Assembly (NCBI GenBank): GCA_025463055.1
Contig: JAOAPV010000114.1
Coordinates: 62,001-126,000 of the forward strand
DNA length: 64,000 nucleotides
Source: Candidatus Acidiferrum typicum
Lineage (GTDB): Bacteria; Acidobacteriota; Terriglobia; Acidiferrales; UBA7541
Direction: 5' to 3'
Below the pieces are notes generated by a model. It searched no databases and was not told the DNA's origin. It saw only the letters and a program-made list of their open reading frames with translations. The first letter of the stretch is position 1. Every line of letters begins with the position of its first letter. The translations under genes were made by a program, and so were the position numbers. Positions 1 through 32,241 of the stretch are shown one piece after another.

Positions 1-26
1 AGGGGCGACCGGATCGCCCCTCTTTT
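1..26 (+). terminator. Rho-independent terminator of a gene left of the window
   Basis: An 8-bp perfect stem (bases 1-8 with 14-21, AGGGGCGA/TCGCCCCT) with a 5-nt loop is followed by CTTTT. The T-run lies on the plus-strand side, so it would end a plus-strand gene that lies outside the window. It could also limit read-through into the convergent catalase gene. Confidence 0.6.
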
Positions 27-43
27 GGCCAATACCTAATTGT

Positions 44-805
44 CTATCGATGTGCGGAACGAGACTTGCCTTCTGCTCTCCCTCCCTCGCCCGCGCGAAT
101 CTCTCCGAACGCCGGCGCCTCCACGAACTCCCAGCCATTACCCGAGTTCCAGGGACCGCGCGCATCGCGTTCGCCGTGGTCGCCGACACCCGTTGAATCG
201 TTGAAGTATTGATCGACGAGTTCCGGCGTGGGCGGAATCTGGCCGATCGAAAACGGCTTTTTGCCCAGGCTGTCCAGCGCGAACGCGAAGGACTTCATGT
301 GCGCAATCTCGCGGGTCATCAAGAATTGGAGAGCATCTTTCGTTCCTGGATCATCGCAAAAGTTGATGAGCCGCTCGTAGACAATCTTCGCGCGCGCTTC
401 CGCGGCGATATTGCTGCGCAGATCGACGTCTAGCTCGCCGGTGATCTTCAAATAGTCGGCCGTCCATGGCGTGCCCATGGAATTGCAGAGCGTCGCGCCA
501 CCACCGCCGGCGATGGCCACCAAGGGGTCGGATTCGGCGGCAGTAGCGGACTTCTTCATAGGCTTCAGATGCATGCGCGCCAGTGTGCCGACGATTTCCA
601 AGTGGCTTAGTTCCTCGGTGCCGATGTCCATTAGCAAATCTTGCCGGTCAGGATCATCGCAATTCAGACCCTGAATGGAATATTGCAGAGCTGCGGCCAG
701 CTCGCCGTTCGCGCCGCCAAACTGCTCGAGCAGCATGTTGCCAAACCGGGGTTCGGGCGTGCCGACGTTCACGGTGTACATCAATCTTTTCACGTGGTGA
801 TACAT
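44..805 (-). CDS. Manganese catalase (non-haem, ferritin-like)
   Basis: Predicted 253-residue dimanganese catalase, which would convert hydrogen peroxide to water and oxygen in the cytoplasm. The five expected metal ligands are visible with family spacing: E35, E65-x2-H68, then E136 and H169 (33 apart). The reading frame stays open upstream to about 1066, but that part looks non-coding. The ATG at 803-805 is preceded by AAGAAAGGAAACGAG, a good ribosome site, and starts the family-like MYHHVKRLMY. It is divergent from enolase. The last 60 residues are polar and probably a flexible tail. Family assignment is from recognised sequence; activity is inferred. Confidence 0.88.
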   Translation of the reverse strand: MYHHVKRLMYTVNVGTPEPRFGNMLLEQFGGANGELAAALQYSIQGLNCDDPDRQDLLMDIGTEELSHLEIVGTLARMHLKPMKKSATAAESDPLVAIAGGGGATLCNSMGTPWTADYLKITGELDVDLRSNIAAEARAKIVYERLINFCDDPGTKDALQFLMTREIAHMKSFAFALDSLGKKPFSIGQIPPTPELVDQYFNDSTGVGDHGERDARGPWNSGNGWEFVEAPAFGEIRAGEGGRAEGKSRSAHR

Positions 806-23681: not shown

Positions 23682-24065
23682 TCAGCTTGATGCCGCGCGG
23701 AAGGCTTTGGCGCAGTCGGCGCAAGGGCAGATGCTGCGGAGGTGATCGTAGCTGAAGATTCCGGTGGCGTGCCCGTCGGTAAAGGTGATCTGGATGGCAT
23801 AGTTGCCGACTGTTGTGGCGGCTTGTGCGCGAGCTTTGGGCTTGAACATCGGCAGCGCCGCCGCGGACGCAGGACCCGCACCGGCGAAGGCGCTTTTCCT
23901 TATACGCTCGTCATTACAAGTTGCGCACGGGCATTCTTCGCGAAGATACACGAAATCATAATGGCTCGCGTGACCGTCGGACCACGTAATGTCCACGCCG
24001 GCACCGCTGGTTACATGCACCTTTACCGTGGCCGGCTTTTTGCGGGAATCAATTGGGATTGGCAT
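23682..24065 (-). CDS. DUF971 domain protein
   Basis: 127 residues. DUF971 (gamma-butyrobetaine hydroxylase N-terminal-like) signature WSDGHASHYDFVYLREECPCATC is at about residues 28-50 and its C-terminal repeat-like segment FTDGHATGIFSYDHLRSICPCADC near 94-117. Two CPCAxC clusters suggest zinc or Fe-S binding. Related small proteins occur near Fe-S and iron-handling genes. It starts 16 bases after the ABC-DtxR stop and is the likely last gene of the iron operon. Confidence 0.8.
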   Translation of the reverse strand: MPIPIDSRKKPATVKVHVTSGAGVDITWSDGHASHYDFVYLREECPCATCNDERIRKSAFAGAGPASAAALPMFKPKARAQAATTVGNYAIQITFTDGHATGIFSYDHLRSICPCADCAKAFRAASS

Positions 24066-24081: not shown

Positions 24082-25260
24082 TCAAATCTTGATCTTGCCG
24101 TTGCAGCAATCGCCGGGCGGAATGGGATTGCCGTGCGGGCACGTTTTTGGATGGCCGAGGAAGGTGCAGATGCGCTGGTCGAGCTCCGGGCTGATGATGT
24201 GCTCAAATTTGCAAGCCTGGTTGTGCACTTCGGATTCGTCGATCGCAAATGTGTCTTTAAAGAGCCGCTCGGCGAGCCGATGACGTCGCACCACGTTGCG
24301 GGCCCGTTGGCTGCCACCTGGCGTCAATTGCACTTCGCCATTGCGCAATTCCACTAACTGCAATTCCGACATGCGGCCGAGCGCGCGAGAGGCGGGCTCA
24401 TCTGGCAGCACCGGAAGATTCCCGGCTGGTCCGGTGGCGCGAAGAACCTCTACAAGCGCCGGCTTGCCTTCCTCGCCGCAAATCCAAATTTGCTCGAGCA
24501 AATGATCGAAGCGAATTTCGTCGTCGGTCGAGACATTGCTGCAGCAGTCGGCTGTGTTGACGAGCGGGCAAGCGAGCGGGTGCCCCGGACCGTGCTGCAA
24601 GGTATCGAAATGCAGGCGCCCGTGCGCGAGCTCGATGCGGCGGTCGGCTTGGCGCGCGATATCAGGGTCGTGCGTCACCATCAAGATTGTGTGCCCGGCG
24701 TTGTGCAGCTCGCGAAAAATCTGCAGCACGATCGCTTCGTTGACTTCGTCGAGGTTGCCTGTGGGCTCATCCGCCAGAATCAGCTGCGGCTCATTGATGA
24801 GCGCGCGAGCGATGGCTACGCGCTGCTGCTCGCCGCCGGAGAGCTGCGCGGGCAAATGCGTGCGGCGGTCGCCTAGGCCGACGCGTTGCAACGCATCGCT
24901 GGCCTGCTGCTCGTTCGTGACACTGTGAAAGTATTGCGCGAGCATCACGTTCTCGAGCGCCGTCAGATACGGCACGAGATGAAACTGCTGGAATACGAAA
25001 CCAACCTTTTCGGCGCGATAGCGAACCAACTCGCTTTCGCTGAGCTTCGCAAGATCGACCCCATCAACGATCACGCGCCCGGAAGTCAGCGTATCCAAGC
25101 CGCCAAGAATATTGATGAGCGTGGTCTTCCCCGAACCGGACGGTCCCATCAGTGCTACCCATTCGCCAGGAGCGATGCTAAAACTCAGGCCATCCACCGC
25201 GCAGAGCGAGCCGTATTTCTTTGCAAGCGATTCGATGGCAACCTGGGCGGAGGCACTCAC
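24082..25260 (-). CDS. ABC transporter ATPase fused to a DtxR-family metal-sensing domain
   Basis: 392 residues in one uninterrupted frame. Residues 1-225 are a MacB/LolD-type ATPase: Walker A G39-T47, signature LSGGEQQ 140-146, Walker B LILADEP 160-166, H-loop H197. Residues about 245-392 resemble DtxR/IdeR: a degenerate winged helix, then H327, E331, H346, C350, E353, H354. Their spacing is identical to DtxR ligands H79, E83, H98, C102, E105, H106, and the GNPIP motif follows. The SH3-like third domain is absent and the protein ends in a Cys-rich tail. It overlaps the upstream permease by four bases. Inferred role: ATPase of an iron exporter or importer with its own ferrous-iron sensor. The permeases are FtsX-type, so direct iron translocation is not assured. 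Confidence 0.88.
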
Positions 25261-26405
25261 GCTTCACCCCGAAAAACCGATGCCGGGCGAATATTGGCAA
25301 GCCGGCGCAGGGGATACGCGCCCGCGATTGCAACGATGATAGTCAGTGCCACAGTTACAGGATACACAATCAACCGTGGGCGCGCCGCAATGCCGAATAC
25401 CGCTTTGCCCAGCCACATCGAAAGCAAAATGCCAATCGCCGCGCCGAGAACGCCGCCAGTCAAACCCAGGAGCGCGGCCTCCGCTAGAAATAGCCGTAGC
25501 ACGCGCCGCGTCGCTCCGCCGATAGCCTTCATCAAGCCAACGTCGTTGCGGCGCTCCATCGCGACGTTCGTCATTGCCGCCATCACGCAAAGTGCGGTGA
25601 GCACGAGCACGAGCACGACTGTAGCGGAAAGAATGCCGCTGATTCGATCGTATATTTTCGCCTCGCCCTCGGTGAATTGGCGAATCGGCCGAACCTCCGC
25701 CTGCGGAAATCGCTGCGCGGCGCTGGCAACATATTTGTCAATCACGGCCGGCGTGCCTTCCACGCGAAGTTGAATCAAGCTGATTCTGCCGGGCAGTCCA
25801 GCCAAGTGTTGCGACATTCCCAAATCTACAGAGACTTGATTATCCTCAGTGCCGCCGCTCGAGGTGATCGCCAAGATCTGACATGTTGCTTGCGCTCCAG
25901 CATCGCGCAGCACTAATTTTTCACCCGCGCGCAAGCGCAACTGCTCCGCGACTTTGCTGCCTGCACTGCATTGCTGGTCATTCTGTGGCGCTGAAGCGCC
26001 GGTAACCCTATCAATAGCGTGCATTACCCGCCTGCCGGCGACCACAACCGGAACAAACTTTGCAGAACGATCCACAGAAACTTCCGCGATGACGTAGAGA
26101 AGAGCCACACCCGAGACCGGGCGCTCACCGGGCACAGTCGCAACTTGCCCCAGTTCCTGCGCAAGGGTCTCGCTGAGAGTGGCGCCATTTGGCGAGGAGA
26201 TCTGTTCGCGAGGACTGACGATCACGTTGGGACCAAATGCACGAAACTCCGTCGTTAGGCGGCGCTTGGCGTCGATTTGAAGATTCAGCAGGGCGGCAGT
26301 GACCGTGGCGCCGGCTCCTAGCGCCAGCAAAATGACCAGCAACCGCGCGCGATTGGATGCAAAAATTCTCCGGATAATCCGCCAGAACATTTTGCGGTCC
26401 GGCAT
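25257..26405 (-). CDS. FtsX-type ABC permease, P19/FTR1 iron-system-associated (second)
   Basis: 382 residues with the MacB/FtsX layout: one N-terminal helix (RARLLVILLALGAGATVTAALLNLQI), a periplasmic domain of about 220 residues and three C-terminal helices starting near 255. The C-terminus carries the ERRNDVGLMKAIGG segment common to FtsX-family permeases. Its ATG overlaps the upstream permease stop by one base (TAATG). Position and type match the second permease (Cj1662 position) of the Campylobacter P19 operon. Such permeases usually work as mechanotransmitters, moving energy to periplasmic partners rather than passing a substrate. Confidence 0.85.
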   Translation of the reverse strand: MPDRKMFWRIIRRIFASNRARLLVILLALGAGATVTAALLNLQIDAKRRLTTEFRAFGPNVIVSPREQISSPNGATLSETLAQELGQVATVPGERPVSGVALLYVIAEVSVDRSAKFVPVVVAGRRVMHAIDRVTGASAPQNDQQCSAGSKVAEQLRLRAGEKLVLRDAGAQATCQILAITSSGGTEDNQVSVDLGMSQHLAGLPGRISLIQLRVEGTPAVIDKYVASAAQRFPQAEVRPIRQFTEGEAKIYDRISGILSATVVLVLVLTALCVMAAMTNVAMERRNDVGLMKAIGGATRRVLRLFLAEAALLGLTGGVLGAAIGILLSMWLGKAVFGIAARPRLIVYPVTVALTIIVAIAGAYPLRRLANIRPASVFRGEA

Positions 26406-27706
26406 TATTCGCCCCGCAGAATCGGCGCGGGCTCATAGCGCGAGGCGCGTCGCAGAGGAATCGCGCTGCCGAGAAGTGTGACCACCGCGGCAAGTCCGAT
26501 AATGACGCTGAGCACAAGAAATGAAAATTCCGGCGCAGCACCAAAGATTTTCTGCCCTACGAGGCGAGCGAGCAGGATGCCTAGCGAATAACCGAGGCCG
26601 CCTCCAAGAAGCGCCAACAAGAGCTGCTCTGCCGCCAGCAAAAATCCAACAGTGCCAGAGCCGGCACCCAGCGCTTTCATCAACCCAATTTCCGTGCGCC
26701 GTTCAATGACGGAAGCGGCGGACGACGCACCCACCGCCAACGCAGCCGCAAGCAGCGAAGCTAATGTCACGAGCCACAGCAAAGTGCGCACCCGTGTGAG
26801 AATGGCGCCCTCGCCATCCGCCACACGGCGAATCACGCGCACGTCCGCGCCCGGCAAAACCTGCCTGATTTGCAGCGCAATGGAAGAAATGTAAGGCGTG
26901 CAGTACCAGCGGTCGTAATCCGCCTGAGCGAGCGTGGTTGGATCACGCCGCCCAAACTCATCCTCCGGCTTGGTCAGCGCGCTCACGTACAGCCGCCGAT
27001 ATTCTCCGGTTTTTCCGGCCATCTTCTGCGCCATTGTAAGCGGCGCCACAATCGAATCGTCCTCGGCACCACCACCGGACAAAATCCCCGTTACGACCAG
27101 CGACAAATTTGCCCCCGAAGCGTTTACGTTCAGAGCGCTCCCGATCTTTGCGCCCGTGCGCGCCGCAAACGATTTGCCAACAACGCACTCCTCCGCGCCA
27201 TCTTTAAACCACCGCCCATCCACCTGCCACCACGGATTCGTCTTCTCGATCCCCGTGACGTACGTTTTGCCGTCTGGAATCGAAACTGAGTGATTAGCCC
27301 AAGTGCCCATCAAAGTTGTGCGCTCTGCGATCGCAGGCGTTGAACTTGTTTGGGAGGGCTTTGTCCAAGCCTCGACGGGAACTTCGAGCGCAGGGGCAAA
27401 ACCCACAATATTGTTTCGCCAGAAAATCGTCTTCAGTTTGCCAAGATCGGATTCCGGCAGGTACGCGCCTGCGTTCACGGGCCGATAGTCGACGCCGCCA
27501 ATTTCCAACGGCAGTGAATCCGCTTGCGCCGTAACGACCAGATTCGCACCCAAGCTGCGAAACTCCCGCGCCAAGCGATCACCAACGTCCAGCGAAACGC
27601 TAATTGCCGCGGTAGCAACGGCCATTCCTAATGCAAGAGCAGCCCCGGTGAGGAGCTTGTGGCGCGGTCGGCGGCTGAAGGAATCGGCAACGAGTCTTAG
27701 AAACAT
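26405..27706 (-). CDS. FtsX-type ABC permease, P19/FTR1 iron-system-associated (first)
   Basis: 433 residues. An N-terminal helix (HKLLTGAALALGMAVATAAISVS) is followed by a large periplasmic region containing SGGGAEDDSIVAPL and then three helices, with VIERRTEIGLMKALGAG near 340. It is a paralogue of the next permease, and both share the LMKA-G helix motif. It starts 104 bases after the FTR1 stop. Together the two would form a heterodimer with the ABC-DtxR ATPase. Periplasmic domains could engage the DUF2318 domain or a P19-like protein encoded elsewhere. Confidence 0.85.
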   Translation of the reverse strand: MFLRLVADSFSRRPRHKLLTGAALALGMAVATAAISVSLDVGDRLAREFRSLGANLVVTAQADSLPLEIGGVDYRPVNAGAYLPESDLGKLKTIFWRNNIVGFAPALEVPVEAWTKPSQTSSTPAIAERTTLMGTWANHSVSIPDGKTYVTGIEKTNPWWQVDGRWFKDGAEECVVGKSFAARTGAKIGSALNVNASGANLSLVVTGILSGGGAEDDSIVAPLTMAQKMAGKTGEYRRLYVSALTKPEDEFGRRDPTTLAQADYDRWYCTPYISSIALQIRQVLPGADVRVIRRVADGEGAILTRVRTLLWLVTLASLLAAALAVGASSAASVIERRTEIGLMKALGAGSGTVGFLLAAEQLLLALLGGGLGYSLGILLARLVGQKIFGAAPEFSFLVLSVIIGLAAVVTLLGSAIPLRRASRYEPAPILRGE

Positions 27707-27810: not shown

Positions 27811-29073
27811 CTACTGCGGAACCTCTTTTTCCGCCTGCCTCAGCGCACTCACATCCATCACCAAGTCGCCGCCCTCAACACGCGCGGACACGCCAACAGG
27901 ATTGCAGCCGCCAGCTTCGCCAATCGACGGCACATAAATCGCCGAGCCGCAGTGCCGGCAGACCACGTTCTGCCCATCCTGCCGGTAGCCTTCCGCACCG
28001 CAAATCCGGCAAGCATCCAGCGCCGTCCCATACCCATTCGGCTTCTTGATGACCATGAAGCGCAGCGATTGACCGTCAACATTCACGGTGAACAAATGCA
28101 TGTTCGAGTCCTGAACCTCGCTCAACGGAACGCGCACCTCGTTCCCAACCGCGGTAATTGGCCGCGCGGCCGGCGGCGCCGAATTCGCCCGCGTATAGAT
28201 AAAGTCTGCCGTGAGCACCAATATGACTGTCATGCACCCGACGGCCCCCGTCATCATCCAGCGCTGCGCCCGGCGATTCTGCGACTCGACCAGCCGCCGT
28301 TCGGCATCGCCCATCGCTTCTTTCGCCGATTTGGCGTGCGTAGCGGACTGCCATTCCCGAAAAATCAGCAGCGCCGCCGCCCCAAACACAAACACAAAGA
28401 AAAACAATTCATTCCGCACGATGGGGCCGATCAGCGCCATCTCGTGCTTGCTCGAAGGCAGCCAGCCCGCCTCGCTCAGCTCGTGCAGCCCGGTCAACGC
28501 CAATTGAAACGCCACCAGCGTCAAAATCGCGCTGGTCACTGCAAAAAATCGGTGCAATGGCACGCGCAGGGTGCCCTTGAAGAAGAAAACCCCAACAGCC
28601 ACCGCACCCGCGATGCCCAGAATGGTCCCAATCCACGTCTGCAAGCCTTCGGTGGACATCTCCACGGCACGCAAGATCAGCGCCAACTCCGCGCCTTCGC
28701 GCACGACCATCAAAAACACAAACAGAAATATTCCCAGGCCGGCGGCACGCCCCGCGCGCACAGCATAAGACTCCACTTTTTGCTCGATATCTTTTTTCAG
28801 ATGCCGCGCAACGCGGTTCATCCAAACGATCATCGTAATCACAAAGAAGGCGGCGAGGAGCAGCATCAGGCCTTCAAAACCGTCTTCGCTAATGCGCCAG
28901 TGCTGCAAAGCCATAGCAACAGCCAAGCTCAGCGCCGTAGCAGTGGCCACGCCGTACCAGGCAAAGCGCGCGAGATGCGAGCGGCCTGTACGCGACAAAT
29001 ACACGAGGATGATGCCAACAACGAGCGCAGCTTCCACACCTTCACGGAGGGCAATGAGAAAGGCAGCGAGCAA
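27811..29073 (-). CDS. FTR1 iron permease fused to DUF2318 Fe-S-like domain
   Basis: 420 residues. Residues 1-245 are the seven-helix FTR1/Fip1/EfeU permease with both iron-translocation motifs: R10-E-G-V-E14 and R125-E-G-A-E129. A membrane helix near 272-292 leads to a C-terminal DUF2318-type domain with C355, C358, C372, C375 and C390, likely an Fe-S or zinc site. In Campylobacter these two parts are separate proteins (Cj1658 and Cj1660) flanking P19. Start is TTG with GGAG eight bases upstream. First gene of the operon. EfeO/EfeB or P19 partners are absent here. Confidence 0.9.
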   Translation of the reverse strand: MLAAFLIALREGVEAALVVGIILVYLSRTGRSHLARFAWYGVATATALSLAVAMALQHWRISEDGFEGLMLLLAAFFVITMIVWMNRVARHLKKDIEQKVESYAVRAGRAAGLGIFLFVFLMVVREGAELALILRAVEMSTEGLQTWIGTILGIAGAVAVGVFFFKGTLRVPLHRFFAVTSAILTLVAFQLALTGLHELSEAGWLPSSKHEMALIGPIVRNELFFFVFVFGAAALLIFREWQSATHAKSAKEAMGDAERRLVESQNRRAQRWMMTGAVGCMTVILVLTADFIYTRANSAPPAARPITAVGNEVRVPLSEVQDSNMHLFTVNVDGQSLRFMVIKKPNGYGTALDACRICGAEGYRQDGQNVVCRHCGSAIYVPSIGEAGGCNPVGVSARVEGGDLVMDVSALRQAEKEVPQ

Positions 29074-29093
29074 GAAAACTCCAGTTGAAAATG

Positions 29094-29142
29094 AGTTGCA
29101 ACTACAAATCCAAGTTTACGCGCCGCGCCCGGCCAGCGTCAA
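29094..29142 (-). promoter_or_regulatory. Promoter and palindromic operator candidate of the iron operon
   Basis: Read on the minus strand, TTGACG (29142-29137), an 18-base spacer and TAAACT (29118-29113) form a fair sigma-70 promoter. A perfect 10-bp palindrome AGTTGCAACT (29103-29094) lies where transcription would begin and 21 bases before the FTR1 start. The half-site AGTTG recurs six bases downstream on the minus strand as CAACT. A repressor bound here would block initiation. The regulator is unknown; the ABC-linked DtxR domain or a Fur-type protein are candidates. Confidence 0.4.
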
Positions 29143-29199: not shown

Positions 29200-32100
29200 A
29201 TGAGCCCAGCCTCCCTGCGCCAAGCCGCGTCGCTTGTGTTGTCCGCGCTACTCTGCGCCTCAGCTCCCGCGCAGCAGCCACAGCTCTCGTCGACGGCTCC
29301 CAACGCCCTCGTTCGCCCTGATCCGAAACGCGCGGAAAAGCTAGTCGAGCGCGGAGAAAAGGCGGAAGCCGACGGCCGCAACGATGAAGCCCTGCTGGCC
29401 TACGACGAAGCGGCTCGCCTCGCACCGCAGAACCTCGCGCTCGCCAGCCGTGGCGCGGGCCTGCGTTCCAGGCTGATTCGCGAACACGTCGACAAGGCCG
29501 AGCAATTAGCCCTAGCCGGCAAGCTCCCGCAAGCCAGGGAAGAGCTCACCGTAGCCATGCGCATCGACCCTTCCAACAGAATCGTCGCCGAGCGCTACGC
29601 CCAAATGGAATCCATGCGAGACGATGAGCCGGCCCTGCCCGCAACCGAAATCTCCGGTATGCCACAACTAAAGCCGCAGCCGGGAAGACACAGCTTCGAC
29701 CTTCACGGCGACACGCGCAGCGCCTACGAGCAAGTTGCGCAGGCCTTTGGCGTAAAGGTTCTCTTCGACCCCGACGTCGTTTCGCGTCAAGTGCACATGC
29801 ACCTCGACAACGTGGATTTCAACACGGCCGTCTCCCTCCTGGGTTCGACAACGGCAACTTTTTGGACGCCGGTGAACGCCAGCCAAATGTTTGTGGCCCC
29901 GGACACCCTGGAAAAGCGCCGCCAGTTCGGCTTGCAGGCGGAGCAAACTTTTCCTCTGCCCTCCTCGGCGAGTCCCGAGGAAATGACCGAACTTCTGCGC
30001 ATGCTGCGTGAGATAACCGGCACAGCGCGCATCGACCTGAGCACCAGCAGCCACACCATCACCATGCGCGACGCCCCCGCTCGGTTGGCGCTGGCCGCCG
30101 AGTTGATCCACGACGTCGATCGCGCGCGCGGCGAGCTCATGCTCGATATCGAACTGCTTGAGGTCGACCGCAACAAAGCGCAGCAGCTGGGCATAACTCC
30201 GCCTTCGTCGGCGCAGGCTTTCTTGATCAACCCAAGCGACGTGCGCGCCCTGCAGAAAGCCACGGACTTAAATAATGCGCTCACGATTCTGGGACAGCTG
30301 CTCAGCGCAAAAGGACTTTCCAGCATTCCGGGTTTCACCCTGATTGGCGGCGGCTACACCACATTTTTGCTTACGTTACCCGGCGTGGCCGCCAATTTCT
30401 CTGACGCGCTCAGCCTGGTACAAAGCGGCCGCCAGGTTTTGCTCCGCGCGCAGGACGGTAAGCCCGCGACCTTCTTCGTCGGCGATCACTTTCCGGTCAC
30501 GCTCTCTCTTTTGTCAGGCAGTCTCGGCACGGCCACCAATCCGAGCGCCAGCAATCCCTCATCGTTCCTTGGCGTGCCAACTCCCACCACTTTTCCCCAA
30601 ACCTCCTTCGCAGTCGGCAGCAATCCTGTCGCGCTGGCGTCCAGTGATTTCAACAACGACAATCTCCCAGACCTCGCCGTTGCGAATCAGGGCGATAACA
30701 CCGTCAGCATTTTGCTGAATCAAGATAACGGAAACTTCGTGGCCGCCACCAAATCCCCGATCGCCTTGGCGAAAACGGAGACTGCGCCTTCGGCCATCGC
30801 CGCCGGCACGCTCGGAAACACATTCGTCACCGCTACCGGCGTGACGGCTCAGGCCGCCGATCTGATCATCGCCAATTCCACTTCTAACAACGTAACGGTC
30901 CTGCTCGGCAACGGTGATGGCACGTTTCGCGAAGCTGCCGGCTCGCCGTACGCTGTTGGGAAAAATCCCAGTTCCGTGGTCATGGCGGATTTCAACGGTG
31001 ACGGCAATCCTGATTTCGCCGTGGCCAACAAGGACGACAACACCATCTCCGTGTTCAAGGGCAATGGCCAAGGTGGCTTTACGCAATTTCCGGGCTCGCC
31101 TTTCGCGCTGACCAATACCTCTACTGTTTCCGAGAAAGGACCGGTCGCCATGGTGATCGGCAACTTCCGCAACGCCACCAATGCAACAAACAATAGCCCC
31201 CAAGTGGACATCGCGGTGGTCAATCAGACTTCCAACAATGTCGCCATCTTGCTGAGCTCCGTCGACGCTAATTCCAATATCTCTTTCACCGAGGCCACGA
31301 ATTCCCCCATTGCCGTTGGCCAGTCGCCCGTAGCCATCGCCGTCGGCGACCTGAATTCAGACACGGTTTCCGATTTCGCCGTCGTCAATCAGGGCGACAA
31401 CACGGTTTCCATCCTTCTTGGCAGCAACAATCTCAATGCAACCTTCACCGCCGCGACCGGTTCTCCGCTACCCACCGCCACGACGCCAGCGGGCATCGTG
31501 ATTGCAAATTTTACCGGCGGCAACTTTCCTTCTCTGGCGGTTACCAATAAAGGTACAGGAACATTGGGCATCTACGTCGGTCTTGGCGCGGGCACATTTT
31601 CGAATCGCATCGAGATTGGCACGCCCGCCAGCCCGAGTGGCATCCTCACCGCCGTCTTGACCTCTACCGCACTGCCGGACGTCGCCCTGACGGCACTGGG
31701 CGCCACGGCGAACCAAGGCGTAGTCACCGTCATACAGGACTCCACAGCCTTCGCGACGGGCGCGAGCACGACGCAAACTCCTTACCCGGGGTCGGAATAT
31801 ATTGACCTCGGCGTGAAGGTCAAAGCCACACCGACGCTGCACCCCCATCACGAGGTTACGCTTCAACTCGAATTTGAAATCCGCGCGCTCGCGGGCGCTA
31901 ATATCAACGGTATTCCTGTCATAACCAATCGCACGCTGACACAAACCGTGCGCGTTAAGGACGACGAAACAACGCTCATTGGTGGATTACTGGACAACGA
32001 AGAAACACGTTCGCTGGTAGGTCTGCCCGGCTTGGCCAAAATTCCGGGACTGGGCTACGCTTTTGGTAACCGGAACAATTCGCTGAAGAATACGGAATTT

Positions 32101-32241
32101 ATGATTCTCATCACGCCGCGCAGGCTGCGTGATCCGATTCGCAACGCACGCACGATCTACGCTGGACGCGGCGAGCCCGCAACTGGCCGCGGCTCGATTC
32201 GAGGCGTTCCGCAACAAGGTCCAGAGCAGCCGCAACCTTGA
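29200..32241 (+). CDS. Secretin-family outer-membrane protein with TPR N-terminus and inserted FG-GAP propeller
   Basis: 1013 residues. After a signal peptide, residues 42-140 form two or three TPR-like repeats. Residues 165-310 match secretin N-domains. The secretin core starts near 312 (LMLDIELLEVDRNKAQQLGI), reaches FVGDHFPV at 426-433, then is interrupted by about 430 residues, 468-850 of which are FG-GAP/VCBS repeats (ADFNGDGNPDFAVAN, LLGNGDGTF). The core resumes at EYIDLGVKVKATP (866) and ends with the GGLLDNEETRSLVGLPGLAKIPGLGYAF signature. It would form a gated ring channel of type II secretion or type IV pili. No other T2SS or pilus gene is adjacent. Confidence 0.85.
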   Translation: MSPASLRQAASLVLSALLCASAPAQQPQLSSTAPNALVRPDPKRAEKLVERGEKAEADGRNDEALLAYDEAARLAPQNLALASRGAGLRSRLIREHVDKAEQLALAGKLPQAREELTVAMRIDPSNRIVAERYAQMESMRDDEPALPATEISGMPQLKPQPGRHSFDLHGDTRSAYEQVAQAFGVKVLFDPDVVSRQVHMHLDNVDFNTAVSLLGSTTATFWTPVNASQMFVAPDTLEKRRQFGLQAEQTFPLPSSASPEEMTELLRMLREITGTARIDLSTSSHTITMRDAPARLALAAELIHDVDRARGELMLDIELLEVDRNKAQQLGITPPSSAQAFLINPSDVRALQKATDLNNALTILGQLLSAKGLSSIPGFTLIGGGYTTFLLTLPGVAANFSDALSLVQSGRQVLLRAQDGKPATFFVGDHFPVTLSLLSGSLGTATNPSASNPSSFLGVPTPTTFPQTSFAVGSNPVALASSDFNNDNLPDLAVANQGDNTVSILLNQDNGNFVAATKSPIALAKTETAPSAIAAGTLGNTFVTATGVTAQAADLIIANSTSNNVTVLLGNGDGTFREAAGSPYAVGKNPSSVVMADFNGDGNPDFAVANKDDNTISVFKGNGQGGFTQFPGSPFALTNTSTVSEKGPVAMVIGNFRNATNATNNSPQVDIAVVNQTSNNVAILLSSVDANSNISFTEATNSPIAVGQSPVAIAVGDLNSDTVSDFAVVNQGDNTVSILLGSNNLNATFTAATGSPLPTATTPAGIVIANFTGGNFPSLAVTNKGTGTLGIYVGLGAGTFSNRIEIGTPASPSGILTAVLTSTALPDVALTALGATANQGVVTVIQDSTAFATGASTTQTPYPGSEYIDLGVKVKATPTLHPHHEVTLQLEFEIRALAGANINGIPVITNRTLTQTVRVKDDETTLIGGLLDNEETRSLVGLPGLAKIPGLGYAFGNRNNSLKNTEFMILITPRRLRDPIRNARTIYAGRGEPATGRGSIRGVPQQGPEQPQP

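Follow-up and report, generated by a model that had tools for sequence, protein, structure and literature searches.

The 64,000-nucleotide window, by which we mean the whole stretch of DNA that was analyzed, carries on its minus strand (24082..25260) a single open frame with a GTG start that encodes a 392-residue protein followed by a stop codon, in which an ABC ATPase is joined to a DtxR-type domain. Residues 1–217 (24610..25260, minus strand) were assigned by Pfam and alignment to an ATPase domain of the MacB/LolD/FetD type: ABC_tran was placed at 23–167 (2.2e-36), Walker A, the signature LSGGEQ, Walker B (LILADEP), and the H-loop are all present, and the best NCBIfam models, LolD and MacB, scored below their cut-offs. 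The remainder, on the same strand, consists of a linker containing CPL..T.DCC (residues 218–246; 24523..24609), a degenerate winged-helix region (residues 247–318; 24307..24522), a DtxR metal-binding and dimerization core (residues 319–371; 24148..24306), and a Cys/His tail (residues 372–386; 24103..24147) that reads C374, P, H376, G, then IPPG, D, C385, C386. The linker varies among lineages, with a mean conservation of 63% and 0 invariant positions in the alignment. Its Cys block is missing from several relatives, which speaks against an essential role for the linker cysteines.

Pfam identified Fe_dep_repr_C (PF02742) at residues 313–381 (5.6e-29; 100 bits against a cut-off of 27), and in a sequence search of the PDB the C-terminal half matched DtxR/IdeR chains (best 1.7e-18). 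The ligand residues H327, E331, H346, C350, E353, and H354 keep DtxR spacing, and C365 and H370 also lie within the core. Of the features that define DtxR repressors, the protein has the primary-site ligand domain and lacks both a conserved DNA-binding helix-turn-helix (HTH; PF01325) and the C-terminal SH3/FeoA-like domain, neither of which Pfam matched at E<=1. This agrees with the original prediction of a degenerate winged helix and a missing SH3-like domain. Some MntR-type repressors also do without the latter, so its absence alone is not decisive.

An AlphaFold2 model of the fusion, built from 26 sequences, was weak (mean pLDDT 53.6), with values of 75–90 only at about 251–270 and 291–330, 56–65 in the metal region (331–370), and below 50 in the tail. 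VIA-align nevertheless superposed residues 246..384 of this model on DtxR 3..139 (Z 15.2, rmsd 2.7 over 123 aa), which gives the DtxR fold that had been predicted and indicates that the winged-helix region is still DtxR-like in fold despite the lack of a PF01325 match. Foldseek with the whole fused model returned ABC chains only among the 50 matches listed; the DtxR match comes from VIA-align. Provided that it is gap-free in between, the same alignment places H253 at the position of DtxR Met10, the equivalence proposed at the outset; E256 we take to occupy the position of MntR Glu11.

The fusion is the last gene of an operon core, transcribed from the minus strand, in which it follows an FTR1 iron permease fused to an FtrD-like (DUF2318) domain (27811..29073; PF03239 1.1e-37, PF10080 1.3e-24), a first permease of MacB_PCD plus FtsX type (26405..27706; PF02687 1.7e-16, PF12704 4.5e-11), and a second FtsX-family permease (25257..26405; PF02687 1.5e-12) whose stop overlaps the GTG start of the fusion by 4 nt. 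FTR1, DUF2318/FtrD, two FtsX-type permeases, and one ATPase occur together in the window and in 52 of the 57 fused loci for which we obtained flanks, the operon being cut by contig ends in the remaining 5; the FTR1 frame is broken in one locus (L042), and another (L053) has its first permease divided between two frames. No P19/FetP or thioredoxin-like FetE/F gene was found among the operon ORFs scanned with Pfam. Downstream lies a GBBH-like_N (DUF971) gene (23682..24065, minus strand; PF06155 6.7e-25), a member of a family linked elsewhere to Fe-S carrier proteins. Such a gene follows the fusion in 34 of the 57 flanked loci, all 34 being among the 36 order-level ones, and the two order-level loci without it (L043 and L057) end at contig edges. 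Divergent from the operon, on the plus strand, 29200–32241 encodes a secretin-type protein (PF00263) with an unusual mix of domains: FG-GAP repeats precede the secretin domain, and a weak TPR match lies near the start.

The best reading of this arrangement is that the fusion supplies the ATPase to an iron-uptake system of FTR1/Fet type that resembles FetM-FetABCD. The FetMP-FetABCDEF system of Campylobacter jejuni likewise clusters an FTR1 permease, DUF2318/FtrD, two permeases, and one ATPase; in the window, by contrast, FTR1 and FtrD are one protein and the ATPase carries a DtxR domain. FetMP-Fls of enterobacterial plasmids is reportedly a related iron-uptake system. The best E. coli plasmid ATPases among the matches listed are 60.8% identical to the ATPase of the fusion; the 15 plasmid matches listed, which we compared without their operons, cover only residues 6–215, whereas the window ATPase continues into the DtxR domain. 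C. jejuni grows less well at low iron once fetA, B, C, or D has been deleted, according to the part of the report available to us (PMC10783030), and the accessible text of another study gives the substrate of the ABC part as not known (PMC6083913).

Distribution and conservation of the fusion

We read 88 fused ORFs (63 distinct over the last 300 aa; four with masked stretches). Because these come from many genomes and each occupies a single frame, artefactual joining of frames can be dismissed; a frame break between the two halves, one of the outcomes that would have refuted the original prediction, is not seen. Together with the Pfam assignment of both ABC_tran and Fe_dep_repr_C to 24082–25260, this confirms the central claim of that prediction: the fusion of an ATPase and a DtxR metal domain in one protein is real, neither a chance event nor an assembly artefact. 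All fused ORFs are from Acidobacteriota except one in a record titled Betaproteobacteria bacterium (BOG_genome_mining.134; L046), which holds an Acidobacteriota-type fusion at 79% identity and is probably a mislabelled MAG.

Within the window's order, 86 of 95 genomes matched the C-terminal 172 aa; by a hand count, 54 of the 95 did so at >=54% identity, the level of the fused type, and weaker matches (<54%) were mostly ordinary DtxR. All 30 order loci that were returned and read as ORFs proved to be fused. A search of genome contigs with two peptide patterns gave 47 loci, comprising 37 fused (L033–L068 and the cut L078), one contig-edge piece (L079), and nine standalone relatives (L069–L077) whose hosts include Myxococcota, KSB1, and Fidelibacterota. 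In a draw across the phylum, 68 of 396 genomes matched, and the 40 places taken with flanks divided into 21 fused and 19 standalone. The fused rows span nine Acidobacteriota family codes (f1, f4, f22, f26, f47, f52, f64, f70, and f84). Presence outside Acidobacteriota was probed through the two peptide patterns in genome contigs, a scan of viral contigs, and plasmids. The viral scan yielded 12 pattern matches with no relative among them. On plasmids, the whole protein matched at least 5000 records, at least 26 of which covered at least 80% of the query, and the DtxR half matched 82, all at <60% identity, the 15 listed being annotated as metal-dependent transcriptional regulators.

Conservation was assessed over 87 distinct rows: 59 fused (38 order-level and 21 deeper) and 28 standalone. 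The order-level rows number 60 with one genome's copies from two collections included, and the 38 distinct ones were used. We left out of the counts L005, L032, L034, and L057 (masked X), L078 (contig ends inside), L079 (contig edge), L229 (no motif match), and the pair L022/L049, which share a tail, are probably one genome, and diverge after CPH with the CC missing. The equivalents of DtxR E83, C102, E105, and H106 (E331, C350, E353, and H354) are invariant in all 87 rows. Position 10 is H, E, or D, always a possible ligand, in each of the 81 rows that cover it, six f4 rows having been trimmed short. The six-ligand set that the original prediction recognized stands at DtxR spacing in the window protein, but two of its members vary among relatives: H346 (DtxR H98) is retained in 30 of the 38 rows at order level but in none of the 21 deeper fused rows (E in 18, A in 2, S in 1), and H327 is replaced by R in 3 of 38 order-level rows and by Q in 5 of 21 deeper fused ones. 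In five fused proteins of family f4 (L112, L114, L115, L117, and L120), the wing is extended by some 30 inserted residues that include His and Cys (for example HPPHPHDHKP...NPCHDA) and could form a further metal site.

A second set of residues, C365, H370, C374, H376, C385, and C386, is invariant across the 87 fused and standalone-subfamily rows. In 29 ordinary paralogs, by comparison, position 102 is Glu, and C365, H370, and the CC pair are missing; C374 and H376 are present in 29/29, so that only part of this Cys/His signature is special. The original prediction had the architecture right and overlooked both this extra invariant tail and the feoB-linked subfamily described below.

In several Acidobacteriota (L180–L185, L194, and L195), the ATPase that goes with the same or a similar operon is unfused; that of L183 lies at a distance of about 4 kb, and L195 encodes FTR1 as an ORF of its own. 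In the ATPase tree, L180–L185 are sister (98/86) to the fused ATPases of the same family, inside the fused group, for which loss of the domain is the simplest history, and L194 and L195 were placed near the base without resolution. The position of L180–L185 inside the fused group indicates that the DtxR domain is dispensable, as expected of a regulatory add-on. The unfused FetD-type ATPase of L194 (122–1135, minus strand) ends in a Cys/His extension of another kind, HKSDACPNCGMNLFKKH, which may be a metal-binding addition of independent origin. In L196 (9212–10240, plus strand) the fused domain has diverged strongly: CC replaces the ACxFEH block, with the loss of the C102/E105/H106 set, and CPHG is kept. 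A change of metal or a loss of sensing is possible there.

Relatives beside feoB and drift of the DNA reader

The standalone relatives are DtxR_C plus FeoA proteins in 28/28 cases, and in 24 of the 28 loci (all except L075, L077, L123, and L144, where no FeoB ORF lies directly upstream) a FeoB ORF directly precedes them on the same strand, as confirmed by Pfam for six. The FeoC family was absent from the Pfam matches listed for the FeoB-neighbor loci, in which the neighbors are PF02742/FeoA proteins. For a FeoB-linked protein, the predicted structure resembles two-domain IdeR (TM 0.73–0.78 on target, about 2.2 Å). In a maximum-likelihood tree of the domain, whose bootstrap is rough and had not settled, fused and standalone forms separate from ordinary paralogs with support of 100/100, and the standalone rows form one group (93/97). 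The fused rows are left paraphyletic in this tree (2 changes), which gives a single origin of the fusion no clear support. For mutual exclusion with FeoB no clear pattern emerged: FeoB_C occurs in 10 of the 95 order genomes, 5 of which, counted by hand, also have the fused type. Among five proteins scanned, no NCBIfam model above cut-off names the subfamily. In the accessible portion of a survey of Feo systems (PMC8749426), FeoA proteins are noted that carry a further domain of unstated type.

In 13 genomes that encode both a fusion and an ordinary DtxR paralog, the mean pairwise identity of the HTH, with gaps counted against, was 0.49 for the fusion and 0.93 for the paralog; that of the metal domain was 0.89 and 0.87. 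Distinct order-level sets gave the same contrast (HTH 0.42 versus 0.84; metal domain 0.86 versus 0.76). The deep fused set scored 0.27 in the HTH, 0.21 in the wing, and 0.66 in the metal domain, and the standalone set, for which there is no matched paralog control, 0.18 in the HTH and 0.53 in the metal domain. Within the domain, conservation is lowest in the HTH for the order-level and standalone sets; in the deep fused set the wing falls lower still. PF01325 scored above cut-off in 80 of 95 genomes, mostly at ordinary DtxR paralogs; comparison by eye found no fused locus among the places listed, which extend to about E 0.003. For 49 fused members, PF01325 is not among the 25 families listed, so at most 10 can match it, and 7 of 28 standalone proteins match at E<=1 (best 6e-4).

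As read from these alignments, the drift of the HTH in the fused form is a loss of constraint and not proof that DNA is no longer bound; the fused domain has probably given up DNA reading. The suggestion in the original prediction that the ATPase might double as a DNA-binding regulator fares poorly here, the HTH being much less conserved than the metal domain, unlike that of ordinary paralogs. We further entertain, as an idea whose chances we put a little below even, that the entire DtxR subfamily bearing the signature C-x(4)-H-x(3)-CPH-x(3)-IP-x-G-x-CC no longer acts on DNA and now senses iron for importers post-translationally, being tethered through FeoA to the FeoB GTPase in Acidobacteriota, Myxococcota, and other phyla, welded to the Fet ATPase in Acidobacteriota, and bearing a second metal or Fe-S site in its tail.

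Candidate transcriptional control and the alternatives

Discussion of iron importers usually centers on transcriptional control, and the operon has candidate elements for it. A palindrome, GTTGCAACTCATTTTCAAC (29084..29102), lies 11–29 bp upstream of the FTR1 start; it is conserved and is an operator candidate. Within 60 bp of the FTR1 start, 23 of 52 loci have GTTG-N11-CAAC, whereas shuffled sequence would lead one to expect 0.025, and the consensus at <=2 mismatches has one other site in the genome. An E. coli-type Fur box was considered and rejected: the window palindrome matches that consensus at 11/19 positions, a score reached by 13 of 200 shuffles, and the conserved motif is GTTG-N11-CAAC. 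Given this poor fit and the single other genomic site, Fur can be attached to the window operon only as a presumptive label. Loci of family f4 have related TTGAAA-type palindromes, identified by eye. In 6 of 9 loci examined from other families, a FUR-family ORF (Pfam) ends within 120 bp of the FTR1 start, with none ending near FTR1 in L110, L112, and L119, and fur also lies upstream at two feoB loci. The palindrome or the upstream fur gene suggests that transcription of the operon is controlled separately. The window's genome has one Fur-family match, no FeoB_C, seven FeoB_N matches that look like other GTPases by frame size, and a single ordinary member of the DtxR family, whose ligands at positions 10 and 102 are Asp/Glu and which by its ligand set we presume to be MntR-like.

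These observations bear on the reading in which the ATPase carries its DtxR part as a transcription factor, one that represses the operon while tethered or is cut off, as YtgR is from YtgC in Chlamydia. A dedicated repressor would want just such a palindrome immediately upstream and nearly unique in the genome, the winged-helix fold is still DtxR-like, and permease-repressor fusions in 11 phyla as well as YtgR cleavage are reported in the available part of one study (PMC5599777). We nonetheless judge this reading very improbable, the lowest of those we weighed, in view of the drifted HTH, the missing fused loci among the PF01325 matches listed, the variable linker with its Cys block gone in several lineages, and the fur gene directly before FTR1 in most of the other-family loci examined. 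Nor is there a conserved internal start: in the region of residues 218–262, some in-frame start codon occurs in 54 of 82 loci, and one with an SD-like site in 11 of 82 (2 more loci had no motif match). A separately translated DtxR protein was rejected for the window, where residues 218–262 contain only TTG, at 221 and 254. YtgC-YtgR (CT069) resembles the fusion in carrying a DtxR-type domain C-terminally on an iron ABC transporter subunit; its partner, however, is a permease, and its domain binds DNA and is cleaved off, as far as the text at hand describes (PMC5599777), whereas Pfam places the DtxR domain here on the ATPase.

The remaining alternatives concern what the domain does with metal. 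That the Cys/His signature holds an Fe-S cluster or an extra metal beyond the DtxR site draws on the invariance of its six residues and on the absence of C365, H370, and the CC pair from ordinary paralogs, and FeoC, a winged-helix protein with an O2-sensitive 4Fe-4S cluster that shields FeoB from FtsH according to the accessible parts of two reports (PMC5519574, PMC10710835), offers a precedent; since C374 and H376 are shared with those paralogs and the DtxR primary ligands are equally invariant, we regard this reading as unlikely. A structural dimerization or assembly relic that senses no metal, or a buffer or chaperone for incoming iron, would be compatible with the ATPases that lack the domain in other lineages. 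It appears to us quite improbable, given ligand invariance over nine family codes while the HTH drifts and the recurrence of the same module beside FeoB, a second and unrelated iron importer.

A proposed iron-dependent control of uptake

Among these readings, the gating idea of the original prediction, in which iron acts through the fused module to control the ATPase allosterically, is the best-supported mechanism, and on the strength of sequence comparison we lean modestly toward it. Strict conservation of the ligands and dimer core, the drifted DNA reader, linkage to the energy units of two importers, and dispensability all favor a regulator. Rising cytosolic Fe(II) would bind the module at the DtxR primary site, formed by C350, E353, and H354 with H253, and E256 and the Cys/His tail might assist. 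The bound module would then change or lock its dimer. The ATPase subunits lie opposite one another in the transporter, so such a change would affect how they open and close and would halt ATP-driven work, a feedback inhibition resembling that by the C-terminal domains of MetN and ModC. That iron acts as a brake on uptake is a guess as to direction, and activation by iron would fit equally. Against a role as iron sensor, deep fused members have lost H98 of the ancillary site, the SH3 ligands are missing, L196 lacks the C102/E105/H106 block, and L022/L049 lack the CC of the tail.

MetNI and ModABC are trans-inhibited by C-terminal domains of their ATPases, which sense the transported nutrient in the cytosol, according to the portion of a review available to us (PMC10710835). 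The fusion shares the placement of a C-terminal domain on the ATPase with MetN (C2 domain) and ModC; the domains are nevertheless unrelated, the permeases here are of FtsX/MacB type, and sensing by the fusion is our proposal. With DtxR/IdeR/MntR repressors it has in common the fold, the primary metal ligands, and a DtxR-type Cys102, and it differs in its drifted HTH, the missing SH3/FeoA domain, the new Cys/His tail, and the covalently attached ATPase. Standalone members of the subfamily might do the same job for FeoB, docked by their FeoA domain instead of by covalent fusion, and FeoA is a plausible dock because it contacts NFeoB in a nucleotide-dependent manner, as stated in the accessible part of one study (PMC8980893). 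FeoA and FeoC, both small and cytosolic, themselves work on an iron importer through contact with it, and FeoC, in the sources at hand, combines a winged helix with a 4Fe-4S cluster. The FeoB-neighboring relatives, however, are DtxR_C plus FeoA proteins homologous to DtxR, and FeoC is an analogy only.

Searches of open-access literature, which leaves out most subscription papers, turned up neither a DtxR-ATPase fusion nor a DtxR subfamily that sits beside feoB and does without DNA. In the fusion family, direct allosteric control of iron uptake by cytosolic iron can be put to a concrete test, as can the conversion of a transcription-factor domain into a transporter regulator. The family also gives access to two questions, namely the task of FetBCD-type ATPases and the way in which FeoB activity is sensed and shut off. 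Within one bacterial family, fused and unfused FetD form natural pairs. If the proposal for the wider subfamily is true, cytosolic iron would directly throttle two unrelated importers via one module.
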